NCBI RefSeq assembly: GCF_014696135.1 | Contig: NZ_JACJPP010000029.1 | Location: forward strand, 1 to 64,000 | Direction of reading: 5' to 3' | DNA from: Nodosilinea sp. FACHB-141 | GTDB taxonomy: Bacteria; Cyanobacteriota; Cyanobacteriia; Phormidesmidales; Phormidesmidaceae | Length of the DNA stretch: 64,000 bases | Shown: positions 1,176-59,055 of the stretch, piece by piece | Layout: each line of letters starts with the position of its first letter | How positions within the stretch are numbered: the stretch's first letter is position 1 | Notes under the pieces: model-generated | Told to the model about the DNA's origin: nothing | What the model saw: the letters and a program-made list of their open reading frames with translations, nothing else | Databases searched by the model: none | Translations under genes and position numbers: made by a program

Positions 1176-4100
1176 TCAATTCAGCTGGAGCAGGGTTACA
1201 ATTTCGCCGACAAATCGTTCTGGCTCTAACGGTTTCGTCAAGTGTGTTTGAAATCCAACTTCGAGGGCTCTTTTTTGGTCAATTTCTGCGGCATAAGCCG
1301 TGAGCGCAATCGCAGGAACCGTCCCGCCCTGAGCGGGTGGACGGGAGCGAATCTGCTGCATCAGCCCGTAGCCATCCATCTCTGGCATGCCAATATCACT
1401 AACAATCACATCAGGAACCAACCGCTCCAAGGCTTGCAGCGCCTCTAAGCCAGAAGGCACCGCCGTTACCCTTGCCCCGTATTGCTCTAGCAGAAAAGCC
1501 TGAAACTCGCGGGTATCAGCGTCGTCATCAACGAGCAAGATTTGAACGTTGTCTAGGAGTGTTTCTGAGTTGAGTTGAGGCTGGGTTGATTCAGAGAGAA
1601 CGGGTGTTGGCCGCTTCAGGACCGGTAGCTGCACGATGAAGGTTGCACCTTGCTGCTCACCGTCACTCTCTACCGCCACTGTACCGCCGTGGAGTTCCAC
1701 AATCTGCCGCACGATGGCGAGCCCTAACCCTAGACCGCCAAATTTACGGGTGGTGGAACCATCTTCTTGCCGAAAATACTCAAACACATAAGGGATGAAT
1801 TGAGCCTTGATGCCAATGCCTGTATCGATTACCCGAATTCGCGCCAATTGCTCCACTTGCCGCAGTTCGACCGTTACTTGCCCGCCCTTGGGCGTGAATT
1901 TGACGGCATTGGTCAGCAGGTTCCAGACCACTTGCTGGAGCCGGGCAGCATCGCCAAAGATGGGGGCAACTTGCGTATCGAGGTCAAGTGCAATCTCAAT
2001 ATTCTTGGCTTCTGCTGCCAACCGCACGGTTTCGACGGCCGCAGAAATCACAAACGTTAAACTGGCGTGAGTCGGATTTAAGGTCAGCTTGCCCTGCATG
2101 ATGCGGGAGATGTCAAGCAAGTCTTCGATCAGTTGAGACTGCAGTTTGGCATTGCGCTCGATCGTCGCGAGTGCTTCCGCTTGGCGGGCTTGGTCGAATC
2201 TGCCGGTTTTCAGCAACTGGGTCCAGCCCAAAATCGGGTTGAGGGGCGATCGCAGCTCATGAGACAGCACTGCGAGAAACTCATCCTTAATCCGGTTGGC
2301 GCGTTCTGCTTCTTCTCGTGCCGCTTGTTCTCGTTTTAGCAGTTGCTCTTGCTTCGATTCAGCTTGCTTTTGCCTGGTGATATCGCGTGAGATTGCTAAC
2401 AGTTGTGCAACCTTGCCAGATGCATCTTGAATAGGGGTGACGATAGCATCCCACCACTTCAAGTTGCCCTTTGCCGTGGGGCAGCATCCTTGAAGTTGAG
2501 CAGCATTGCCTGCTTTGGCGGCTATAAACGCTGCCTCTGCATTTTGACGATCTTCGTCTTGCCAGAAATCGAGCCATTTGGCGTTCAAAACAGAGGCCGG
2601 ATCGTCAATTTCCAGGAGATTAAAGCCGCCTGTATTCAAGTAAACGAGTCGGCCCTCTAACGTTAAAACTTTGATACAGTCTTGACTGCTCTCCAAAATG
2701 CGTTGCTTTAGTTCTTCACTCTCTTGCAAGGCAGCTTCTGCCTGTTTGCGATCGGTAATATCGCGACTGACGGTGGCTAACCCGATCGGCTGGTTGTGCT
2801 CATCTTTGATATGAAAGACGTTGTAGATCATCCACAATGCTTCGCCTGTCTTGAAATGACGGAACCGAATTTCTACCTCTGCTTGCCCCTCCTGCAATAC
2901 ATGGGGAAGAAACTCATTGATGATGAAGTCTTGATCTTCAGGGAAAAAGAAGTCTCTAACTGAGGTTTCAATGTATTGCTGGACATCATCCAGTCCCGCT
3001 AGTTGCTGACCCGCTGGATTGACATAAAACGGGACAAAATTCATATCGTACATGCCGATAAATACCCCACTGTTATCGGCTAGGGAAACAAACTTTTGAA
3101 TTTCAAGTTCTGCCTGCTTGCGCTCGCTGATATCGCGGGCTGAACCAACAACAGACTCTACAGTGCCATCGGCGGCAAACACTGGGCTAAAAATATACTC
3201 AAAGTAGCCCTCAGTTCCGGCTGGATTTGTGTGAGTAATTTCGTTTTTGACGGTATCTCCGGTCTCAAAGACTCGTCGCATATCGTCCAACGCTTGCTGC
3301 TCAACGGCTGCGGGATAATTAAGTTCAGCCATCGTCTTGCCGATCGCCTCTGCTGCGGTGACTCCCCACAAATCGAGCAACACTTGATTGGCGTAAAGAA
3401 ACCGCCCATCGAGGTCAAAGCTAAATACAAAATCGGTGAGGGTCGAAAGCGTAGCATCAAACTTTCGTACTTCACGTTCGAGGTCGGCTGATGTTTGCCG
3501 CAACGCTTCGTCTATTTGTTTGCGATCGCTAATATCTTTGAATACGATCGCCACTTTTCGGTCTTCCGGTTGTCCAGTGCGGCAGGCATAAACATCAAAC
3601 CAGCGGTTCATCGGTGCAGAATGATTCTCGAAGCGAATCGGTTCTCCCGTTAAGGCAACTCTGCCGTAGGTTTCGATCCAGAAATATTCTGGATCGGACA
3701 CTAACTGACGCGCTGTTTTACCGACAGCTTGTCGTAAACCGGTTTGCTGCTCAAACACGGGATTAACTTCTAAGATGCGGTAATCAACGGGCGTGTCGTT
3801 CTCGTCAAACAGCACCTCGACAATGCAAAAGCCCTCGTCGATCGACTCAAACAAGGTGCGATATTTGGCTTCCGACTCACGCAGTGCGGCTTCGGCATAG
3901 GCCCGTTCAGTGGCTGCCCACGTCTGTTCTGCGGTTTCTTCAACTAGTTTGACCTCGGTTTCCGTCCACTGACGTGGTGTTGATTGCTGAGCGGCCAGTA
4001 GGGCCACAAACTGACCTTTTTTGATTAGCGGCACATCAATGTGGGCCGCGATATCAATCTCGCGGTATTTCTTTTTCTGAGCGTCTGTATAGGTGGAGTC

Positions 4101-4604
4101 GTTGGGAATATCGGTGACGACTTGAGTGCGCCCAGCCTCATGATCAGCCGTCAGATTGCGCTGGTAGTCCTCCAATCGGTATCGTCCGCTCAAGGAGGCT
4201 ACACCATTGGTGTAGTTGCAACGAACGACGACCTCCTCACCCTCCGACACGACTTCGATATAAATGACGCGAGTTGCGCCCAGAGACTCACCTAAAATGC
4301 GAGCGGCGATCGCCTGAATTTCTGACGCATCAGTAATCGGCCGCAGGGCCTCTGCTAGTTTGACTCGAAACGCATTGAGCTGATTGGCCTGGTGTAAGGC
4401 ATGATCTTGCGATCTCTCTGGGGCTGACTGTACTTGCTCTAGCTCGGTCAGTAAAATTTGCGCTGCCGTTTTCAAGTCGTCTGACCAGGTTTCAACCGCT
4501 CCTAATGGCGTTTGCGACCAGTCGTGCGAGCGCAGGAGTGTTTCTATCTCACCACCGCTTCCAAAGAGCTTGTCAGGCATCTCTCGGTGTTGCTCTGACC
4601 TCAT
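1176..4604 (-). CDS. Multi-PAS hybrid sensor histidine kinase with C-terminal receiver
   Basis: A 1142-residue soluble hybrid kinase. In order: a short N-terminal region, a GAF domain (about 80-235), four PAS domains (about 245-365, 380-500, 500-620, 625-745), and a HisKA domain whose SHELRSP motif places the phospho-accepting histidine at His782. An HATPase_c domain follows with NAVKF (N box), DTGIGI and GLGLGLAI (G boxes), then a receiver (about 1015-1135) with the phosphorylated Asp at 1070 in [11 protein letters not shown]. It should autophosphorylate in response to an unknown GAF/PAS ligand and pass phosphate to its own receiver. No membrane segment is seen. Its ATG overlaps the stop of the upstream XRE gene by 4 bp (ATGA), indicating translational coupling and a two-gene operon. 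Confidence 0.93.
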
Positions 4605-4900
4605 GCGTTTAGCCTCCTTGGAGGCAAATATTTTCTTTGGATTGCCTGGCTGCTTTCCTGTAAAGCCCTATCAGGTGACTCCGCCAATTGGTTCAGTAAG
4701 GTTTCAAGTTGTTTGAGTGCCAAGGGAGAAGGGGTGGCATGTCCGTTTTCCCAACGATTGATGGTGGGAAAGGAGACTCCAAGCTGAGCCGCAAACTTCT
4801 CCTGGGTCAGTTTTAAGGTTTGCCGCAGCTCTCGAATCAATTGACCAACGGCGGGCTGTTTGATCCCTAAGTAGTCCTGATGAAAGGCCACAGCGCTCAC
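4601..4900 (-). CDS. XRE-family HTH regulator coupled to the hybrid kinase
   Basis: A 99-residue DNA-binding protein. Residues about 20-75 form a Cro/C1-type helix-turn-helix: LRQTLKLTQEKFAAQLGV is the first two helices and SFPTINRWENG the recognition helix. The rest is a short polar tail. It probably acts as a transcription regulator of its own operon or as a small partner of the kinase. The ATGA overlap with the kinase start at 4604 suggests they are made together. XRE-kinase pairs of this kind are common in cyanobacteria. The target sequence is unknown. Confidence 0.85.
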   Translation of the reverse strand: MSAVAFHQDYLGIKQPAVGQLIRELRQTLKLTQEKFAAQLGVSFPTINRWENGHATPSPLALKQLETLLNQLAESPDRALQESSQAIQRKYLPPRRLNA

Positions 4901-6653: not shown

Positions 6654-6791
6654 TGCCTGTCGAGATTCGCCGCACCGTAGATGAAGATTTGCCCTTTAAA
6701 CTCAATCATCCAAACACTCAAGGAATAATCAGGGCGGAGGCGTCATGAACAATTGCTAAAGGTGGATTACAAGCTGTAATAAGCTTAAACA

Positions 6792-7190
6792 TTAAGAGGA
6801 TATGGCTTGTTTCCCAAACCGTAAAAAGCTTGCAACTCTATCTAAAATCTCATCAATCTCTATTGGTTTACGAATAAAATCGTTTGCACCCACTGCCAGC
6901 CCCTGAATGCGATTAGCATCTTCATGGGCAGTCACCATTAAAATAGGAATAAATGGTATGTTTTTGTTTTGACGAATCTTTTCAACTGTCTCATATCCAT
7001 TCATTTCAGGCATCATCACATCCATCAAAATCAAATCGGGTGGCGAAGCTTCTACTTTCACAAGAGCTGTTCTGCCGTTGTCCGCTGTGTCAACCTGGTA
7101 CCCTGCTGCTTCCAAAACAGTTTGCAGCAGAAATAAGTTGTCAATGATGTCATCCACAACAAGTATACGGAAGGTTTGAGCGCCACACAT
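6792..7190 (-). CDS. Stand-alone CheY-like response regulator
   Basis: A 132-residue single receiver domain with no output domain. It carries the acidic pair in ILVVDDI, the phospho-accepting Asp57 in LILMDVMMPEMNG, the conserved Thr/Ala in MVTAHED and the Lys in IRKPI. Such proteins act by protein-protein contact or as phosphate shuttles. It lies between two histidine kinase genes on the same strand but is separated from each by 0.5-0.6 kb, so it is probably transcribed alone. The partner kinase is inferred only from proximity. Confidence 0.9.
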   Translation of the reverse strand: MCGAQTFRILVVDDIIDNLFLLQTVLEAAGYQVDTADNGRTALVKVEASPPDLILMDVMMPEMNGYETVEKIRQNKNIPFIPILMVTAHEDANRIQGLAVGANDFIRKPIEIDEILDRVASFLRFGKQAISS

Positions 7191-50000: not shown

Positions 50001-50047
50001 TGTGGATAGAATGATGACCAGGCTGGAATAGCGGAGCAGTGGGATGG

Positions 50048-52411
50048 ATGGAGCGATCGCGCAAGTTGGCTTTGACAAATTGGACACAAGCGAACGATGC
50101 ATTGAATCTATATTTCGAGGGCAATAAATCGAAGCTGACAGAGCACGTTAAGATGTCCCGCACCACCATCACCGCTTTTTTCAATCAAAAGCCTGTGCGT
50201 GAAGCGAAGTTCCGTAAGATCTGTTTAGCTTTGCGGCTGAATTGGCAAGAAGTTTCTACGGTTCAGGCGATTCCTGCGGAGAGCTTTGCTAACGCTTCCC
50301 AATCCGAAAAGGAGACTGCTACACTCCAGCACATTCGAGAACATTGCCGTCAAAAAATCTTTAACCTTCACAGTCGGATGAGATTGCTGAGTGGGGAGGA
50401 GATTGGAGTTGATCAGCTTTATGTCGATGTCTGGTTGCTGAATCGCTCGCCTCGTACCTTTCAGGTGTCTCAAGATAAGCTGCTGCAAACCTTTGATTTG
50501 CGGAACGATCGGCTGGGGTTAGGCGATCGCATCAAACGCAATCCGAGTTTTGAGGTTGCCAATACTAATGCAAAACTTCTGATTCTGGGTAAACCCGGTG
50601 CAGGAAAAACAACCTTTCTCAAACACTTGGCAGTGGACTGGTGTAAGGAACAGTTTCAGCCAGATCTGATTGCGGTCTTCATCGAACTTCGTCGCATTCG
50701 GGATGGGGAATGGAAGTTACTGAACGCGATTCGCCAGGAATTGGGACTGGAAACTTCAGAGCAAACTGAAGAGTTGCTGAAGCAAGACAAACTCCTGGTG
50801 CTGATGGATGGATTGGACGAAGTGCCAACGAGTGAACTGCGACGCAAGGCCCAGAATCAATTTCTAGAGATGGCAAATCAGTATGCCAATAATCGATGGA
50901 TTTTGACCTGTCGCACCCAGATTATTGCATCGATTCCGGATTGGCTCACCTCAGTGGAAGTAGCAGACTTCAGTTCAGAACAAGTGCAGCAGTTTGTCCA
51001 GAACTGGTTTCAGGCAAGCGGAGAATCGGATGCAGAAGTGTTGCAGCAGTGGGAGAGGCTCAACAATGCCGTAGAAAAGAATCCGGCACTGAGGGAGCTG
51101 ACAGTGACTCCGGTGTTGTTGAGTCTGATGTGTTTAGTCCTCCACGACGAAGGAGAAATGCCCCCACGAATGACTGATCTTTACAAAAGAGGGATTCGGT
51201 TACTGCTAGAGAAATGGAATGATACCAAGGCAATCGAAGGGTGGGAGGTAGGTAGTGACACCTACCGAAAATTAAGTGTGGAGCAAAAAGAATCACTACT
51301 GCTTGAGATTGCCGCCCGCAAATTTGAGAACCCAAAGAACTTTGTTTTATTTGAACAAGCAGAGATTGGCACTCAGGTTGCCCAATTTCTCCACCTCGCT
51401 AGCCACAAAGAAGGTGTTGCAGTCCTGAAAGCAATGGAAGCTCAGCACGGGTTGCTAATCGAACGGGCAGACGAATTGTGGTCTTTTTCCCACCTCACGT
51501 TTCAGGAACATTTTACCGTTCAATGGCTGACTCAACTGTCCCCAGCACAACTGGCCGAGAAGATTGCAGACTCGCAATGGCAGCAGGTTGTCGAGCAATT
51601 AGTGAAATCACAGCAGCCTGCCGATCGCTTATTGCGCCTGATTAAACAATCCATCGATCGGTCAATCGCAGGTGAACTAACTTTGAATCGATTTTTAAAC
51701 TGGGTTTTGCAGAAAGCAGGCTCGATCCGAACAAACGATAAACCTGCCGCCCTTCGGGCCTTCTATTTTGCCTTCGGTCGCGACCGCGCCCGCGACCTCG
51801 ACCTCGACCTCGCCCGCGACCTCGACCTCGACCTCGCTCTCGCCCTCGACCTCGCTCTCGCCCGCGCCCTCGACTTCGACCTCAACTTCGACCTCGCCCG
51901 CGACCTCGACTTCGACTTCGACCGCGCCCTCGACTTCGACCTCGACGACCTCCTCGACGACCTCGACCCCGGACTCGACCCCGGACTCGACCACGCCCGC
52001 GTCCGCGCCCTCGACCGCGCCTTTACTCTTGACCGCGCCCTCGATCGCGCCCGTGTCCTTGACGATAAACTTGCAGTCAAACTGGAGCAGTTGAAAACTA
52101 GATTACCTTTATCAAAAAATTGGCAGCACTTTCAGCAATGGTGGCAAGCAGAGGGTCGACAGTGGCTGGAGGACCTGCGGCAGGCAATGATTGAGCACCG
52201 CAACATAGGGCATGACTGGCAGTTTAATCAGCAACAGAAACAACAACTGCAACGCTACTACGATGCCAATCACTTCCTCGTTAAACTAATGCAAATTGAG
52301 GGTGCAGTGAGCCCAGATGTTCGAGCTGACATTGAAGATAGCCTGCTGCTACCCTGGGATGAACTGCAACACCGCTATCCAGATATTTATGTCTATAATT
52401 CCCTCAATTAA
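50048..52411 (+). CDS. HTH-NACHT NTPase (bacterial NLR-like) with a low-complexity tract
   Basis: 787 residues from the ATG at 50048 (a GTG at 50039 is an alternative). Residues about 10-70 are a helix-turn-helix (SKLTEHVKMSRTTITAFFNQ). A linker leads to a NACHT domain: Walker A GKPGAGKTT (Lys187), Walker B LVLMDGLDEVP (Asp254), and the sensor region NRWILTCRTQ. A helical part containing LWSFSHLTFQEHFTVQWL is characteristic of the NACHT winged-helix region. Residues about 577-676 are a simple-sequence tract of Asp, Arg, Leu, Ala and Phe; the C-terminal about 110 residues are normal. NACHT proteins sense invaders and trigger effectors; no separate effector domain is visible. Confidence 0.88.
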   Translation: MERSRKLALTNWTQANDALNLYFEGNKSKLTEHVKMSRTTITAFFNQKPVREAKFRKICLALRLNWQEVSTVQAIPAESFANASQSEKETATLQHIREHCRQKIFNLHSRMRLLSGEEIGVDQLYVDVWLLNRSPRTFQVSQDKLLQTFDLRNDRLGLGDRIKRNPSFEVANTNAKLLILGKPGAGKTTFLKHLAVDWCKEQFQPDLIAVFIELRRIRDGEWKLLNAIRQELGLETSEQTEELLKQDKLLVLMDGLDEVPTSELRRKAQNQFLEMANQYANNRWILTCRTQIIASIPDWLTSVEVADFSSEQVQQFVQNWFQASGESDAEVLQQWERLNNAVEKNPALRELTVTPVLLSLMCLVLHDEGEMPPRMTDLYKRGIRLLLEKWNDTKAIEGWEVGSDTYRKLSVEQKESLLLEIAARKFENPKNFVLFEQAEIGTQVAQFLHLASHKEGVAVLKAMEAQHGLLIERADELWSFSHLTFQEHFTVQWLTQLSPAQLAEKIADSQWQQVVEQLVKSQQPADRLLRLIKQSIDRSIAGELTLNRFLNWVLQKAGSIRTNDKPAALRAFYFAFGRDRARDLDLDLARDLDLDLALALDLALARALDFDLNFDLARDLDFDFDRALDFDLDDLLDDLDPGLDPGLDHARVRALDRAFTLDRALDRARVLDDKLAVKLEQLKTRLPLSKNWQHFQQWWQAEGRQWLEDLRQAMIEHRNIGHDWQFNQQQKQQLQRYYDANHFLVKLMQIEGAVSPDVRADIEDSLLLPWDELQHRYPDIYVYNSLN
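51779..52072 (+). repeat. GACCTCGAC-type simple-sequence repeat inside the NACHT gene
   Basis: About 290 bp made almost wholly of interchanging GACCTC, GACTTC, GCCCGC and GCCCTC hexamers, in phase with the reading frame, so each unit adds or removes two residues. Slippage or recombination would change length without a frameshift. Confidence 0.85.
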
Positions 52412-54847: not shown

Positions 54848-55507
54848 TCAAACCAAAATCCCAACCATCCGCCGGTTCGGATGAAGGGCCGAGAGACCAG
54901 CCAAAAATTCTCGGATAAATTTGGGCGATACCCGACTCTGCATCCGTACTGCAAGCGCCACCCGATTTCCAGGCGTTAGGCCAACCACCACTGTCGCTGG
55001 GGGCAGCAGCGAGACAAGCCCAAGCTGACAGGTCGTTCGGTGGGTCACCAGGTACAAGAGCTCCCGACACCGACCCTTTCGACACCGAGGAAACAATCGC
55101 CCTGTGGAACAGAGTTCCTCCACCTGCGCCTCAAAAGTAAGTCCCAACCGATAAAACACCCGCCGCACCGTATCTACCGAAGGGGGATAAGCCGGCAGCA
55201 CCTCTCTAAGTTCGGTGACCAACTGGGGAAGAGTCCAGATGGAAGGAGTGCTGCTACCACTACTACCATGGCCCACGAGCCGACCAAGCAGCCGCACCCC
55301 ATCCTCTTTCTCTATGCTCCAGGGAGGGCGACCGACGGGGCGCTTTACCCCCTGAGGCCCGTCCTTTCGTCTATCCGTCGGTGGCGGTACCGGGAGGAGC
55401 AGCGCCATCACTGCATCAAGTCCAAGTCCCAGGCGCTGGCAGATTTCCGGGGTTGTTACTCCTGTCGAATGAAGTGCACGCGCCGTTTCGCGTAAGCCAG
55501 AATCCAT
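54848..55507 (-). CDS. HTH protein resembling the DNA-binding half of an IS630-type transposase
   Basis: 219 residues. The N-terminal HTH (RALHSTGVTTPEICQRLGLG) is followed by a Pro/Arg linker (KRPVGRPPW) with the AT-hook-like GRP core, and a winged-helix segment (LPQLVTELREVLPAYPPS, then VDTVRRVFYRLGLTFEAQ) as in IS630 transposases. No DDE motif follows. The rest (CRELLYLVTHRTTCQLGLVS) is unassigned. It may be a domesticated transposase DNA-binding protein or a regulator; truncation by decay is also possible, although the frame is clean for its whole length. Confidence 0.55.
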   Translation of the reverse strand: MDSGLRETARALHSTGVTTPEICQRLGLGLDAVMALLLPVPPPTDRRKDGPQGVKRPVGRPPWSIEKEDGVRLLGRLVGHGSSGSSTPSIWTLPQLVTELREVLPAYPPSVDTVRRVFYRLGLTFEAQVEELCSTGRLFPRCRKGRCRELLYLVTHRTTCQLGLVSLLPPATVVVGLTPGNRVALAVRMQSRVSPKFIREFLAGLSALHPNRRMVGILV

Positions 55508-56109
55508 ACCTTCACCAAAGAATCGGTAGCCAGCTAATGTTTATTGCGGCAAAGTCTACGGGTGTTCCACAGGTATGTCACCCCGAAAAGCCTCCTTAAG
55601 GAAGACCCAGAAGTATGCAGGAAAGCTTTTATTTCAAAGACTTAGCAGCCCCAACGCGACTCCAAAAATCGTCGTGCGATCGCGTCCTCCAAAAGTGCGT
55701 GGAACACTCTAAACCCGAAGCCGCCTTGGCCCCCGCCCAGTACGTTCATCAAAGAACGCACCTTTACCACCTAAATCAAACCTTATCCCACTGATCGCGC
55801 TCACTATTTTTCTTCCTCTCGCCTAATCTTCCGTGCTAAGGTCTCCCCCGGTTGGTTTTTTTACGGTTCATGGGGACATACCCGTGAGCTGTCTTTTTTT
55901 TCTTCGCGGGTGTGTCCCCGCCTTTCTCTCTCCCTCTCGTCGCTACTGTTGAGCGACACAGGCCTTCTGAGCCCATACTCCCCCGGTCTGCAACTATCTA
56001 TTATCTCGTCACTTTTTCCTGTAAATCCTTAACCCCATGGAGTACCGTTCCTCGCCAGAGGCTGTGTCTACCAGTTCGCTTAAACAGAGCAACGAGTTCA
56101 GCTACCAGA
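55508..56109. other. Gene-less leader with a 13-bp stem
   Basis: No credible gene in about 600 bp. The clearest element is GGGGACATACCCG (55872-55884) pairing with 55907-55919 (one G-T) across a T-rich loop. It lies immediately before the structured region that begins near 56110 and could be a terminator or part of the same RNA. Confidence 0.5.
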
Positions 56110-57200
56110 TCGTGTGACGGTGGAGCCCGGTAAACCTTGGCAACAATATTACCAAGCCAAGGCTAAGGGCGTGGGACTAACCCACCCACAACCCACTGCA
56201 CCTTCGCGCCAGGTGCCTCGAGAGGGGCTTGCCTGTGCGTAACGAGGGCTTGGGAGACTAATCCCTTACTTGATGGAAGCAGCGTCTTCCGGAGTAAGGA
56301 GTAACCCTTCCATTCGACTCGGTGTTGTTTTAGCGGGAGGAATTCTCCCTTCAGTTGTTTTCTTGAAGGTTGGCGACCAGGGAATGCCTTGCGTCAGAGC
56401 GGCAGCGTAGTCGTCGCTTGTGCGTAAGGTCGTGGCAACCTGAAGGCTCCAATCCTCTTCGGGGGTAAAAGTGAGTCGTAGGGAATAGCAGTCGAAGCGG
56501 TGAAATCCACATCGGGCCACCGATGTGCGTCGGGTTAAACCCCGACTAATCCGTGGTATGGGACGAGCTGTAATGGCGCGTAACGTATCCCAGGGCCGGG
56601 AGGCTGGGCACAGTAATGTGGCCCACCGGAGGATGGTAACTTCGGGGACTCTGGAAATCAGAGCCGCTAAAAAGCTCAACGGTGAAAGGGGCACCAAGTT
56701 CACACAAATGAACCATGCCCTTCCTGGTAACTGCGTGAGAAGCTGATGCCGAACTGCAAAAACGGTGCGTGCTTGTAAGGGGGAGCTTTCCGCTTTCTGC
56801 CCCCGAAAACTGCAAGGTGAGTGGGTAAGCCACCAGCACGATTACCACTGCGGATAGTAATCCGCTAGCGACAGGATCTCACGTGGAACGACTGACACGA
56901 ACTGGGGAAGGACTTCGAGGCTGGCGGGTGGTTCCCGCAAAGGTTGGCCAAACGCTAGGCCAACGGTCAAACCTCAAAGTCTGGGAGCGTGGCGCAAGTA
57001 GGTGGTCCCACTCGACGTCGAGTGGGGCGTGTCAGCGGGGGAGTAGGCTGCTCCCAATGGCATTCTGGATGCGGGGTGGTAGCCGCATCTTTTGAACAGA
57101 CTACGAAAGCGCTGAGGGGTCTCACACGATCGGTAGTTCATCTCGCCGCTTCTGGGCTTACCAGGCACTCTGAAACACGGGTGCCTGGTAAACCAGCACG
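56110..57200 (+). ncRNA. Candidate large structured RNA, about 1.1 kb
   Basis: No credible gene, but closely packed exact stems. Examples: GTGGG 56171/56181; GCACCT 56198/56211; CACATCGG 56508/56520; GTCGGG 56529/56541; CTCTG 56649/56659; GTTCA 56698/56709; GCGGA 56850/56861; GCGGG 56924/56934; GTTGGCC 56943/56958; CCCACTCGA 57007/57018; GGGAG 57039/57051; GATGCGG 57068/57083; TTACCAGGCAC 57158/57181 (left-arm and right-arm starts). Loops are short and purine-rich (GAAA, TAGTAA, TTAAAC). This is the look of an ornate ribozyme-like RNA. A group II intron lacking an ORF (GTGTG at 56112), or a GOLLD/ROOL-type RNA, are candidates; I could not identify a domain V. Strand is inferred from GNRA-like loops and is not certain. 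Confidence 0.55.
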
Positions 57201-57572
57201 GCCATTAACAACAATTGTCTGCTTATTGCAAGGGAAGGCATATGGCAAAACGGAAACTCGAAAAGACAGCTCACTAGCTAGCAACCAAGACAGTTCAAAC
57301 AACTGTTGTTTTTCAAAGCAAAACGGAAACAAACCTTGTCTTTTAGTTTTTCTAACTGATTGAAAAGACGCGGTTTGTTACTGCTTATAGGAAAGTGGAT
57401 CCGGACGGCTCGACGCACCCAAAGGTTCGAGTCTTTGTCCACCCGACATACGGACGTATGGACGGACGCGTTCCCGCAGGCCCTGTCTGGTCTGCGTGTG
57501 GCTATCGTTTGTTCATTAGTTCGTTCGTTGAAGGGTAGGCATCCACAGGTTCTATAACGGCTTTTTGGTTGG
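57201..57572. other. Gene-less interval with T-arm-like hairpin and short repeats
   Basis: Two copies of GCAAAACGGAAAC (57245-57257 and 57318-57330). GTGGA (57395-57399) and CAAAG (57420-57424) pair with CTTTG (57433-57437) and TCCAC (57438-57442) around a tRNA-like T-loop GTTCGAGTC. A complete cloverleaf cannot be drawn because the anticodon arm region is missing. CATAC/GTATG follow at about 57447-57460. Confidence 0.45.
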
Positions 57573-57632
57573 TTGAGCCTATCAATCAACCTTCTCGGTG
57601 ATGCCTATTTTACGAGGCTCTCTCTACTCTGT

Positions 57633-58253
57633 ATGGAAGCACGTACTCTCGGTGATTTTCTCCGGCGCATCGCTATCGACTACGTTCGCCACGGCTGGTT
57701 CAGATACGCGGTAAGGACCATTCCTCATGGGAAAGACATGCTGGCTGTCGACGCCAAGATGAAAGCTACGTACGGGGTCACCTCATGCCGCACGACCCGG
57801 ATGCGCAGCCGGAAAAAGGGCATCGCATCTGTCCAGTACCTGCGTTTCGGCCACACGTTCGTTCTGCTCGCAACAGATGGCTATCAGGACGCACTCGGCC
57901 GCATAACAATGCGGGATATTAGGGAATCTCCGCTTCACTTCGGCGGCTACTCAGTCGGGCTCGCCCGGGGCACAGTCGTTGTAGAAGTCGAGCGCAAGGT
58001 CTGGCAAGTAACTGAGGCACAGCTACACAACCTCTCACTTATAGGCAAAGAACCTCTTGAGAAAGCGCTATCATCTCTCCCCTTCTACCGCTTCCCAGGG
58101 GTAGTGCGGCAGAAACTCAAGCTCTTTCAAGCCATCAACCTAAAACGAAAGGCCGCAGGCCTTCCCCTGCTAACGATAGAAGCAAGTAAAGTCTTTCCAC
58201 CACCTCCTCCTACGGGTAATAGACCGCGCCGAAGGAAGTCTCGCTTTGGGTAA
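57633..58253 (+). CDS. Conserved plasmid protein of unknown function
   Basis: 206 residues from the ATG at 57633 (MEARTLGDFLRRIAIDYVRH); 20 upstream codons are open but do not look coding. Conserved-looking parts are WFRYAVRTIPHGKD, RTTRMRSRKKGIASVQYLRF, FVLLATDGYQ and PLHFGGYSVGLARG. The C-terminus is basic and proline-rich (PPPPPTGNRPRRRKSRFG). I recall similar proteins on replicons from several bacterial groups but no function is known. It lies between the structured RNA candidate and the replication origin and may handle one of them. Confidence 0.65.
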   Translation: MEARTLGDFLRRIAIDYVRHGWFRYAVRTIPHGKDMLAVDAKMKATYGVTSCRTTRMRSRKKGIASVQYLRFGHTFVLLATDGYQDALGRITMRDIRESPLHFGGYSVGLARGTVVVEVERKVWQVTEAQLHNLSLIGKEPLEKALSSLPFYRFPGVVRQKLKLFQAINLKRKAAGLPLLTIEASKVFPPPPPTGNRPRRRKSRFG

Positions 58254-58743: not shown

Positions 58744-58971
58744 TATTATCTTGCAGACCTGGCTGAACCCTACAGACCGACTAAGCGCCTTAAAAGCCTG
58801 CCTTTCTGTGATTCAGACACACCTTCGTGCCTAAGAGAGCATTCCTTGCCTTCAGGGGGAGCCAGCTAAGAAGTTAAAAGGTTTTATAAGTTAAAAGAAA
58901 CGCGCGCGCGAAGTTAAGGGATCCAAAATCACCTCTAACTACCTGTAATCACTTTGAGAAAAATTACTCTC

Positions 58972-59055
58972 GGTGGGTGAAATACCGAAGTCGCCACCGC
59001 CTCCGGTGGGTGAAGTACCGAAGCTTGAGCGCTTGTTGGTGGGTGAAATACCGAT
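58972..59055 (+). repeat. Three iterons, 33-bp spacing (origin of replication)
   Basis: GGTGGGTGAAATACCGA begins at 58972, 59005 (one change, AAG) and 59038. The spacing is 33 bp each, close to three helical turns, so a Rep protein can bind the copies on one face. This lies 313 bp from the stop of the Rep gene. It is the strongest candidate for the replicon's oriV. Confidence 0.85.

Follow-up and report, generated by a model that had tools for sequence, protein, structure and literature searches.

The window (the whole stretch of DNA analysed here, 64,000 nt from Nodosilinea sp. FACHB-141) carries at 56100-57138, on the forward strand, a large structured RNA rather than a gene. Its limits are set by a helix that joins both ends. 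Past the 3' end, on the same strand, lies acpG, a gene whose product we predict to be a degenerate reverse transcriptase (RT), and smaller elements stand ahead of the RNA and between the RNA and the gene (Table 1).

Table 1. Features of the RNA, of acpG and of their flanks, in window coordinates
Feature	Position	Strand	Basis
Upstream hairpin GGGGACA..UGUCCCC, U-rich loop	55872-55919	+	Sequence and alignments; kept in close relatives and in G068
5' arm of closing helix	56100-56117	+	Pairs with 57122-57138; 17 bp; 0/60 shuffles; same place in other groups
Domain 5 (D5): GAGA tetraloop, 5-bp upper stem, UU bulge, CGC triad	56206-56240	+	R1, 81.6 bits, E 1.6e-18 (R1 was built from 14 sequences including the window)
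Domain 6 (D6); putative branch A 56317 and 3' splice site after 56323	56244-56323	+	A9 covariation; register from pPNAP05; branch A and splice site by analogy with PMC8637638
Linker, predicted 47-nt circular product, with hairpin GGGAGGAAUUCUCCC	56324-56370	+	Read by eye
D1-D2-D3 region, starting UGGCGACC at the putative 5' splice site	56371-57121	+	Alignments; R2 model
3' arm of closing helix	57122-57138	+	Helix-length test
3' hairpin with conserved CUGAAA loop, candidate D4	57150-57199	+	Sequence and alignments; name D4 putative
H-type pseudoknot GGCU-UUUU-GGUUGGUUG-AGCC-UAU-CAAUCAACC ahead of acpG	57559-57591	+	14/17 loci
acpG, 206 aa, predicted degenerate group II intron RT/maturase (palm and thumb)	57633-58253	+	Linkage, AcpG membership, predicted fold

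The RNA and its relatives

An earlier note on this DNA had seen more than a dozen exact stems without a credible gene, and took them for a possible large, ribozyme-like non-coding RNA on a plasmid, beside a conserved plasmid gene. Both observations hold. Non-overlapping exact stems of at least 5 bp with loops of 3-10 nt number 15 in 56110-57200, against 6.5 +- 2.2 in dinucleotide shuffles, and stems of at least 6 bp number 8, against 1.8 (0/200 shuffles reach either count). The minimum free energy of 56100-57090 has a z of -3.39, with 0/20 shuffles equally good; two 600-nt tiles within the RNA have z of -2.5 and -2.8, and four of the 25 tiles of 600 nt taken elsewhere in the window (starts 13000, 33000, 55500 and 60500) lie at or below -3.3, with eight shuffles for each tile. 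The tile starting at 55500 adjoins the RNA. Fold energy by itself does not set the RNA apart from the rest of the window; we regard the comparative data, compensatory changes in homologues, as the decisive evidence for a structured RNA.

For open reading frames (ORFs) of at least 70 aa inside the RNA, the comparison of eight genomes gives matches solely to ORFs of the three close relatives. A tRNA/tmRNA search of the window finds none. An Rfam scan of the window gives 0 matches at the gathering cut-off, and at E <= 5 no meaningful match in the RNA stretch. Rfam includes models of GOLLD, ROOL and OLE, to which the earlier note had likened the RNA; these classes, without a match in the scans, are rejected.

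The helix that closes the RNA was examined in 12 RNAs by a helix-length test, which was used because the duplex energies of long arms failed to separate cognate from shuffled arms in several of them: shuffles as good number 156 of 200 in G068, 149 in K2D, 102 in F63, 17 in Lege and 8 in Lbor, and 0-5 of 200 in the remaining seven. By the helix-length test, the closing helix measures 14-18 bp in 8 of the 12 (at most 1/60 shuffles reach this) and 12 bp in K2D (reached by 4/60); the test failed in G068, L. boryana and FACHB-63. The 5' arm stands 95-106 nt ahead of D5 and the 3' arm 20-23 nt past a GAAAGC motif, and the sequence of the helix differs between groups. It may be the equivalent of the pairing between the P1 loop and the 3' end described in PMC8637638. 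A perfect 14-nt complement also flanks the whole RNA, with GUGAGCUGUCUUUU at 55884-55897, within the upstream hairpin, and AAAAGACAGCUCAC at 57261-57274; it is partly kept in G068 and G026.

Run against 143 related genomes, blastn with the RNA recovers the window, three close copies at 91-95% identity and a single match of 38 nt; against the plasmid collection it returns nothing. The 38-nt match lies in G068, at the 5' end of a distant homologue that is present in full length. A conserved 22-nt pattern (at most two mismatches) occurs in 8/388 genomes of the class. Over the 11-17 kb compared, the only gene family beside the RNA in 8/8 genomes is the downstream, same-strand gene that is acpG in the window; replication, ParA, RadC and HTH genes around the RNA are shifted or absent in some of the eight. 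A search with this protein finds 10 loci in genome contigs, at least five of them from genomes already found (duplicate genomes among L023-L032 counted once), and six plasmid records, of which four are from Leptolyngbya boryana and the others are Calothrix sp. NIES-4101 plasmid5 and pK2D_1 of Planctomycetes bacterium K2D, whose protein is 24% identical to the G068 query. Directly ahead of acpG, the L. boryana plasmid pLBX, plasmid5 and pK2D_1 have about 1.4-1.7 kb without listed genes.

Other observations concern the contents of the window and of related contigs. An ORF of 790 aa at 50039-52411 of the window includes a long low-complexity stretch of Asp, Leu, Ala and Arg; judged by eye, its product is perhaps of the NACHT type. 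At 58970-59055, beside an RPA-type rep gene, stand three GGTGGGTGAA(A/G)TACCGA repeats, perhaps iterons. A second acpG copy in another genome (G298:C26:3795-4249) is split in two, an in-frame stop interrupts one of the pieces, and no RNA above chance is found in the 4 kb around it.

Group II domains in permuted order

CP (circularly permuted) group II ribozymes, or "T-large" RNAs, were described in 2021 by Roth et al. (PMC8637638); about 290 of these RNAs are published. According to that paper, their D5 bulge is "UN", the 3' end of the intron is AY, and a loop-loop pseudoknot between P2 and D2 is a feature of the class; plasmid pPNAP05 carries such an RNA near its origin, with a predicted 32-nt circle, and five CP RNAs are active in assays. 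The mark of the class is the placing of D5 and D6 ahead of the remaining RNA. By its sequence, the window RNA is a member of this known class, with D5 and D6 at its 5' side.

In distant copies, D5 appears as a 34-nt hairpin with a 9-bp lower stem, a U.G wobble at the elbow, a 2-nt UU or UC bulge, a 5-bp upper stem, a GNRA loop and an AGC or CGC triad, and a D6-like stem with a bulged A comes directly after it. The RNA has features by which we recognise the class: at the 5' side, a D5-like hairpin with triad, 2-nt UN bulge, 5-bp stem and GNRA loop, and right behind it a putative D6 with a bulged candidate branch A. The window clade has one additional bulged U in the D5 lower stem. The earlier note had found no domain V; this was mistaken, as D5 is present and covaries together with D6 at the 5' side. 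Among 14 cyanobacterial sequences, 93.5% of the 418 cells of the D5-D6 structure are paired and 20/30 pairs have changed on both sides (0/500 shuffles); slid versions of the structure are 34-51% paired. The D5 helix (helix 1 of the D5-D6 alignment, A9) has 98.5% of its cells paired and 8/14 pairs changed on both sides. Alignments A9 and A10 are without G019, which is near-identical to the window, and hold two Calothrix copies as two rows. Compensatory changes are present also within the window clade. The earlier note had set covariation in homologues as a test by which the RNA might be refuted, and the RNA passed it.

We built a D5-D6 model, R1, from 14 cyanobacterial rows, two of them from one Calothrix plasmid. 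On eight unseen loci it finds three: K2D (pK2D_1; E 3.7e-20), Planococcus pA26H1 (2.6e-5) and pPNAP05 (3.2e-4). With filters on, it finds 0/5 Thermus loci; without filters, it gives weak matches there (E 0.024 and up), some at the expected place of the RNA. In a scan of the class, 32/388 genomes match R1 and 11 score at least 69 bits, most of these being sources of R1 itself; the next score is 48. Conversely, the Rfam model of group II introns (RF00029, Intron_gpII; cut-off 40 bits) is passed, at the place of R1, by 2/3 CP homologues (L086 with 47.6 and L077 with 43.6 bits) and does not match the third, L080, the copy of G068; it is also assigned to 9/9 weaker R1 loci examined. The RNA's link to group II introns is thus visible from both sides. 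The plasmid pLBX of L. boryana, a cultured cyanobacterium, carries a CP RNA, with a predicted circle of 12 nt, and acpG; Calothrix NIES-4101 plasmid5 (L034) has two CP D5-D6 copies (4637-4737 and 6788-6879) within 16.5 kb, with one acpG there. A 3.3-kb contig labelled as a Rhodobacteraceae MAG (L026, PUNI01000500.1) has the 3' portion of a CP RNA and encodes an AcpG that shares 52% identity with that of the window; the contig is perhaps cyanobacterial and misbinned. The 5.5-kb Planococcus plasmid pA26H1, with four annotated genes, has a CP D5-D6 at 3080-4524 (L042), together with an AcpG that is divergent and shares 16% identity with that of the window.

The boundaries of the intron lie in reversed order. 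The 3' splice site rule was set so that pPNAP05 yields the predicted 32-nt circle of PMC8637638, and 32 nt is therefore no independent check. By this rule, the intron starts GGGCGA and ends AU in 14/14 copies outside the window clade, G027 being left out of the count; linkers there measure 12-41 nt, against 47 nt in the window. An AU end fits the AY that PMC8637638 gives for the class. In the window clade (four copies, their rows read by eye), the first intron nucleotide (56371) is U and the penultimate one (56322) is G, against G and A in the 14 others. This alteration probably arose in one evolutionary event, and the two changes, U with G for G with A, look coordinated. The GGCGA boundary comes after D6 in 18/18 copies where it was located, and the D1 core comes after D6 in 15 copies, so that reversed splice-site boundaries, a short linker and a D1 behind D6 are all found. 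Within the D1-D2-D3 region stand a conserved AAAAGCUCAAC core (56670 ff.) and AGUCUGGGAGCGUGGCGCAAGUAG. A model of the D1 core (R2, from 56598-56733 and relatives), run on nine loci, matches K2D (E 1.6e-13), Planococcus (0.056) and the published pTT8 (0.55) at the expected places, and finds no match in pPNAP05, G027 and 4/5 Thermus loci; on nine loci of canonical introns, it gives two matches (E 0.27 and 0.29).

Two readings of the RNA can be set aside on these data. The earlier note thought that it may be a new class, and the missing Rfam match of the window would suit a large RNA that forms a class of its own, without relation to group II introns; this is refuted by the D5-D6 covariation, the R1 match to pPNAP05, a host already published for the CP class (PMC8637638), and the RF00029 matches of two homologues, and we hold it to be extremely improbable. 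The same note also named a group II intron without an ORF, which came close: the group II kind stands, as the D5-D6 does resemble that of group II introns, but the order is permuted. An ordinary ORF-less intron is rejected on domain order, boundary and D1 core both following D6, and on the pairing of the RNA's ends with each other in 8/12 RNAs; we leave it hardly any probability.

AcpG and its predicted fold

By sequence, the gene downstream of the RNA is an AcpG, of the family of TTHC007. In hhalign, a profile of the downstream protein's family (A5) matches five Thermus AcpGs at E 1.2e-6, and at 1.2e-4 over gap-trimmed columns, where 0/200 column shuffles score as high; one of the five is the pTT8 protein, taken as TTHC007 from its length and place (PMC8637638). 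Gap trimming for the AcpG shuffle tests dropped AcpG columns of more than half gaps. In a search of the ORFs of 10 loci with A5, four Thermus proteins rank directly behind the members, with E from 4e-4 to 0.029, and the pTT8 protein comes later (0.46), behind an unrelated ORF (0.03). The scan of the class finds AcpG in 13/388 genomes, which are the 11 strong CP genomes, G027 and G180. AcpG stands downstream on the same strand in 11/11 genomes with R1 scores of at least 69 bits. Counting G027, whose RNA R1 finds with filters off (E 2.8e-5), a CP RNA lies near AcpG in 12 of the 13; in G180, the AcpG match is a 45-residue piece only, with no RNA within 5 kb. No AcpG is found in the 50 kb of pPNAP05 examined, and in viral contigs, searched with the AcpG profile, 32 stretches matched a pattern, of which 0 were confirmed.

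According to PMC8637638, no homology was found for AcpG, CP RNAs without acpG are also reported, group II protein genes are said never to have been observed in or near CP RNAs, and the genetic link of acpG and RNA need not imply a physical interaction. In T. thermophilus HB8, acpG is upstream of the CP RNA and divergent (PMC8637638), so the gene order is not universal. Among the matches listed in a search of the literature (without preprints and with few subscription journals), there was no further publication on AcpG. A feature new to the locus is a putative covarying pseudoknot ahead of acpG. Its first stem is GGCU/AGCC or GGUU/AACC, and its second stem has 8-10 bp. It is present in 14/17 acpG leaders including that of K2D, the 14 being partly close relatives and not independent, and in controls it appears in 80/5100 shuffled leaders and 9/532 other window tiles. 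The test was negative in Cyanocohniella, Calothrix and Planococcus.

Predicted structures relate AcpG to RTs. The AlphaFold model of the window's AcpG (model 1, 8 sequences) has a pLDDT of 70 and a pTM of 0.58, and that of a relative, L032 (model 2, 13 sequences), 86.5 and 0.76. In Foldseek, group II RTs are best for model 1 (E 3.1e-3) and group II-type RTs fill ranks 1-6 for model 2 (best E 2.2e-3); no match is at or below 0.001, and TM-scores are low, 0.27-0.51 on the query in the first three rows. In VIA, which re-aligns Foldseek's own top 1000 only and whose notes call Z of 7-8 common, a group II RT is best for model 1 (Z 9.5, 182 residues, rmsd 4.1), and ranks 1-13 for model 2 are all group II-type RT/maturases (Z 9.5-8.2, the top one over 171 residues). 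Among the best 50 VIA matches listed, right-hand polymerases make up 49 for model 1, the other being a ribosomal protein, and all 50 for model 2, including 4xpc and 6b1s, which are host-guest crystals of MMLV RT. On these models, the match covers nearly all of AcpG against RT residues of about 104-423; the predicted fold has the palm and thumb of the right hand, as in RT/maturases, and is without fingers.

Sequence comparison gives a fainter signal. Profiles align AcpG QYLRFGHTFVLLA / QYLRFGHTFVLLAT on the RT5 motif RYADD (E 0.02-0.04), the catalytic YADD being replaced by FGHT. The RT profile used, A6, holds nine hand-picked RTs out of 10, and the larger RT set 23/30 RT loci (ORF of at least 300 aa and a recognisable motif). 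The hhalign probability of AcpG against RTs is 0.8-2.3%, and 2/300 and 6/300 column shuffles reach the score; five unrelated families score below AcpG in the same comparison (E 0.12-0.73). Pfam assigns no family to the window protein, NCBIfam gives three members nothing meaningful and no RT family, PHROGs gives no family for AcpG, and an hmmsearch of PDB sequences gives no RT. In model 2, the stretch aligned on RT5 is predicted to be a beta hairpin with its turn at the RT5 place, so that sequence register and fold agree. None of 17 AcpGs, read by eye, keeps DD at this turn, and for that reason we file AcpG as a relic and not as an active RT. On these models, AcpG is most likely a catalytically dead, free-standing maturase. 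The predicted RT/maturase fold is new for a protein to which PMC8637638 assigned no homology.

Mechanism, meaning and known systems

Five CP RNAs were active in the assays of PMC8637638, and by analogy we expect the window RNA to back-splice. Branch A would attack the 5' splice site, before 56371, the freed 3' end would then attack the 3' splice site, after 56323, and the products would be a released circle of about 47 nt and a branched, T-shaped RNA left behind. The window copy may react poorly, and we are less certain of activity here than in its relatives, because its clade differs at both intron ends. AcpG, as its predicted fold suggests, would be an RT relic in which palm and thumb are retained and the fingers and the catalytic aspartates have gone. 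In ordinary group II introns, maturases help folding and reaction, and in canonical introns the maturase gene lies inside D4. From its fold and linkage, AcpG would likewise bind the RNA and aid its folding and reaction. Permutation by a break in D4 would put the maturase gene just outside the RNA ends, and the position of acpG past the 3' end is the place expected for a D4-encoded protein after such a break. AcpG or the RNA could control acpG translation through the leader pseudoknot, and the circle or the branched RNA might, as a guess, contribute near the origin to maintaining the plasmid.

We judge it likely that the RNA is a CP group II ribozyme and that the gene encodes a degenerate maturase belonging to it, although neither the window copy nor that of G068 has an Rfam match and predicted folds are the main ground for the RT link. 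The ribozyme could be right and AcpG an unrelated plasmid protein that merely resembles RTs in its predicted fold. The weak sequence signal to RTs, the missing homology and the caution on physical interaction in PMC8637638, and a pPNAP05 stretch without AcpG would all suit such a protein; models of two members nevertheless put group II RTs on top, right-hand polymerases take nearly all or all of the best matches listed, and the sequence register falls on the RT5 hairpin, which makes it rather unlikely. We give a similarly small chance to the window copy being a CP group II RNA that no longer back-splices and is retained for another structural role. The changed nucleotides at the intron ends in 4/4 clade members, the altered D5 lower stem and the missing Rfam match point that way, but the clade has compensatory changes, has kept D5, D6, branch A and acpG, and altered both intron ends in what looks like a coordinated manner.

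The ribozyme with its own degenerate maturase, extended to the class, leads to a broader proposal, to which we incline with less assurance: CP group II ribozymes would be two-part ribonucleoproteins, and AcpG the ancestral intron-encoded RT, stripped to a non-catalytic maturase and left outside when the RNA was permuted at D4. If true, the CP class has kept its protein, contrary to what was thought, and AcpG would form, together with the leader pseudoknot, a control circuit for small RNA circles on plasmids of several phyla. An RT-derived AcpG would account for the protein, give the ribozyme a likely helper and tie the origin of the class to a broken intron.

The CP ribozymes of PMC8637638 resemble the RNA in size, in a plasmid setting near replication genes, in domain order, in a U-containing D5 bulge, in the D6 branch A and intron boundaries, in a short linker and in having acpG nearby. 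They differ in hosts, which here are Nodosilinea, Leptolyngbya, Calothrix, Cyanocohniella and a planctomycete, of phyla absent from the main text of that paper; in the orientation of acpG, which varies in the published cases and here is downstream on the same strand wherever both were found outside Thermus; and in the predicted fold of AcpG and the pseudoknot ahead of its gene. Cyanobacterial and planctomycete members are new relative to the main text of PMC8637638, and the cyanobacterial ones may stand in its Data S1. Canonical bacterial group II introns (RF00029, TIGR04416) are alike in that two homologues exceed the cut-off of the same Rfam model with their D5-D6 and in that the RTs of these introns are closest to the predicted fold of AcpG; here, by contrast, the order is permuted, no exons were found, and AcpG is without fingers and catalytic aspartates. 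MatK and Prp8 are RT relics of splicing, in which the RT fold was kept after polymerisation was lost. An RT-derived AcpG would be a further case of a dead RT retained for splicing: it shares with them an RT fold kept for RNA splicing without polymerisation, and differs in being much shorter, at about 206 aa, and in its link to a permuted ribozyme.
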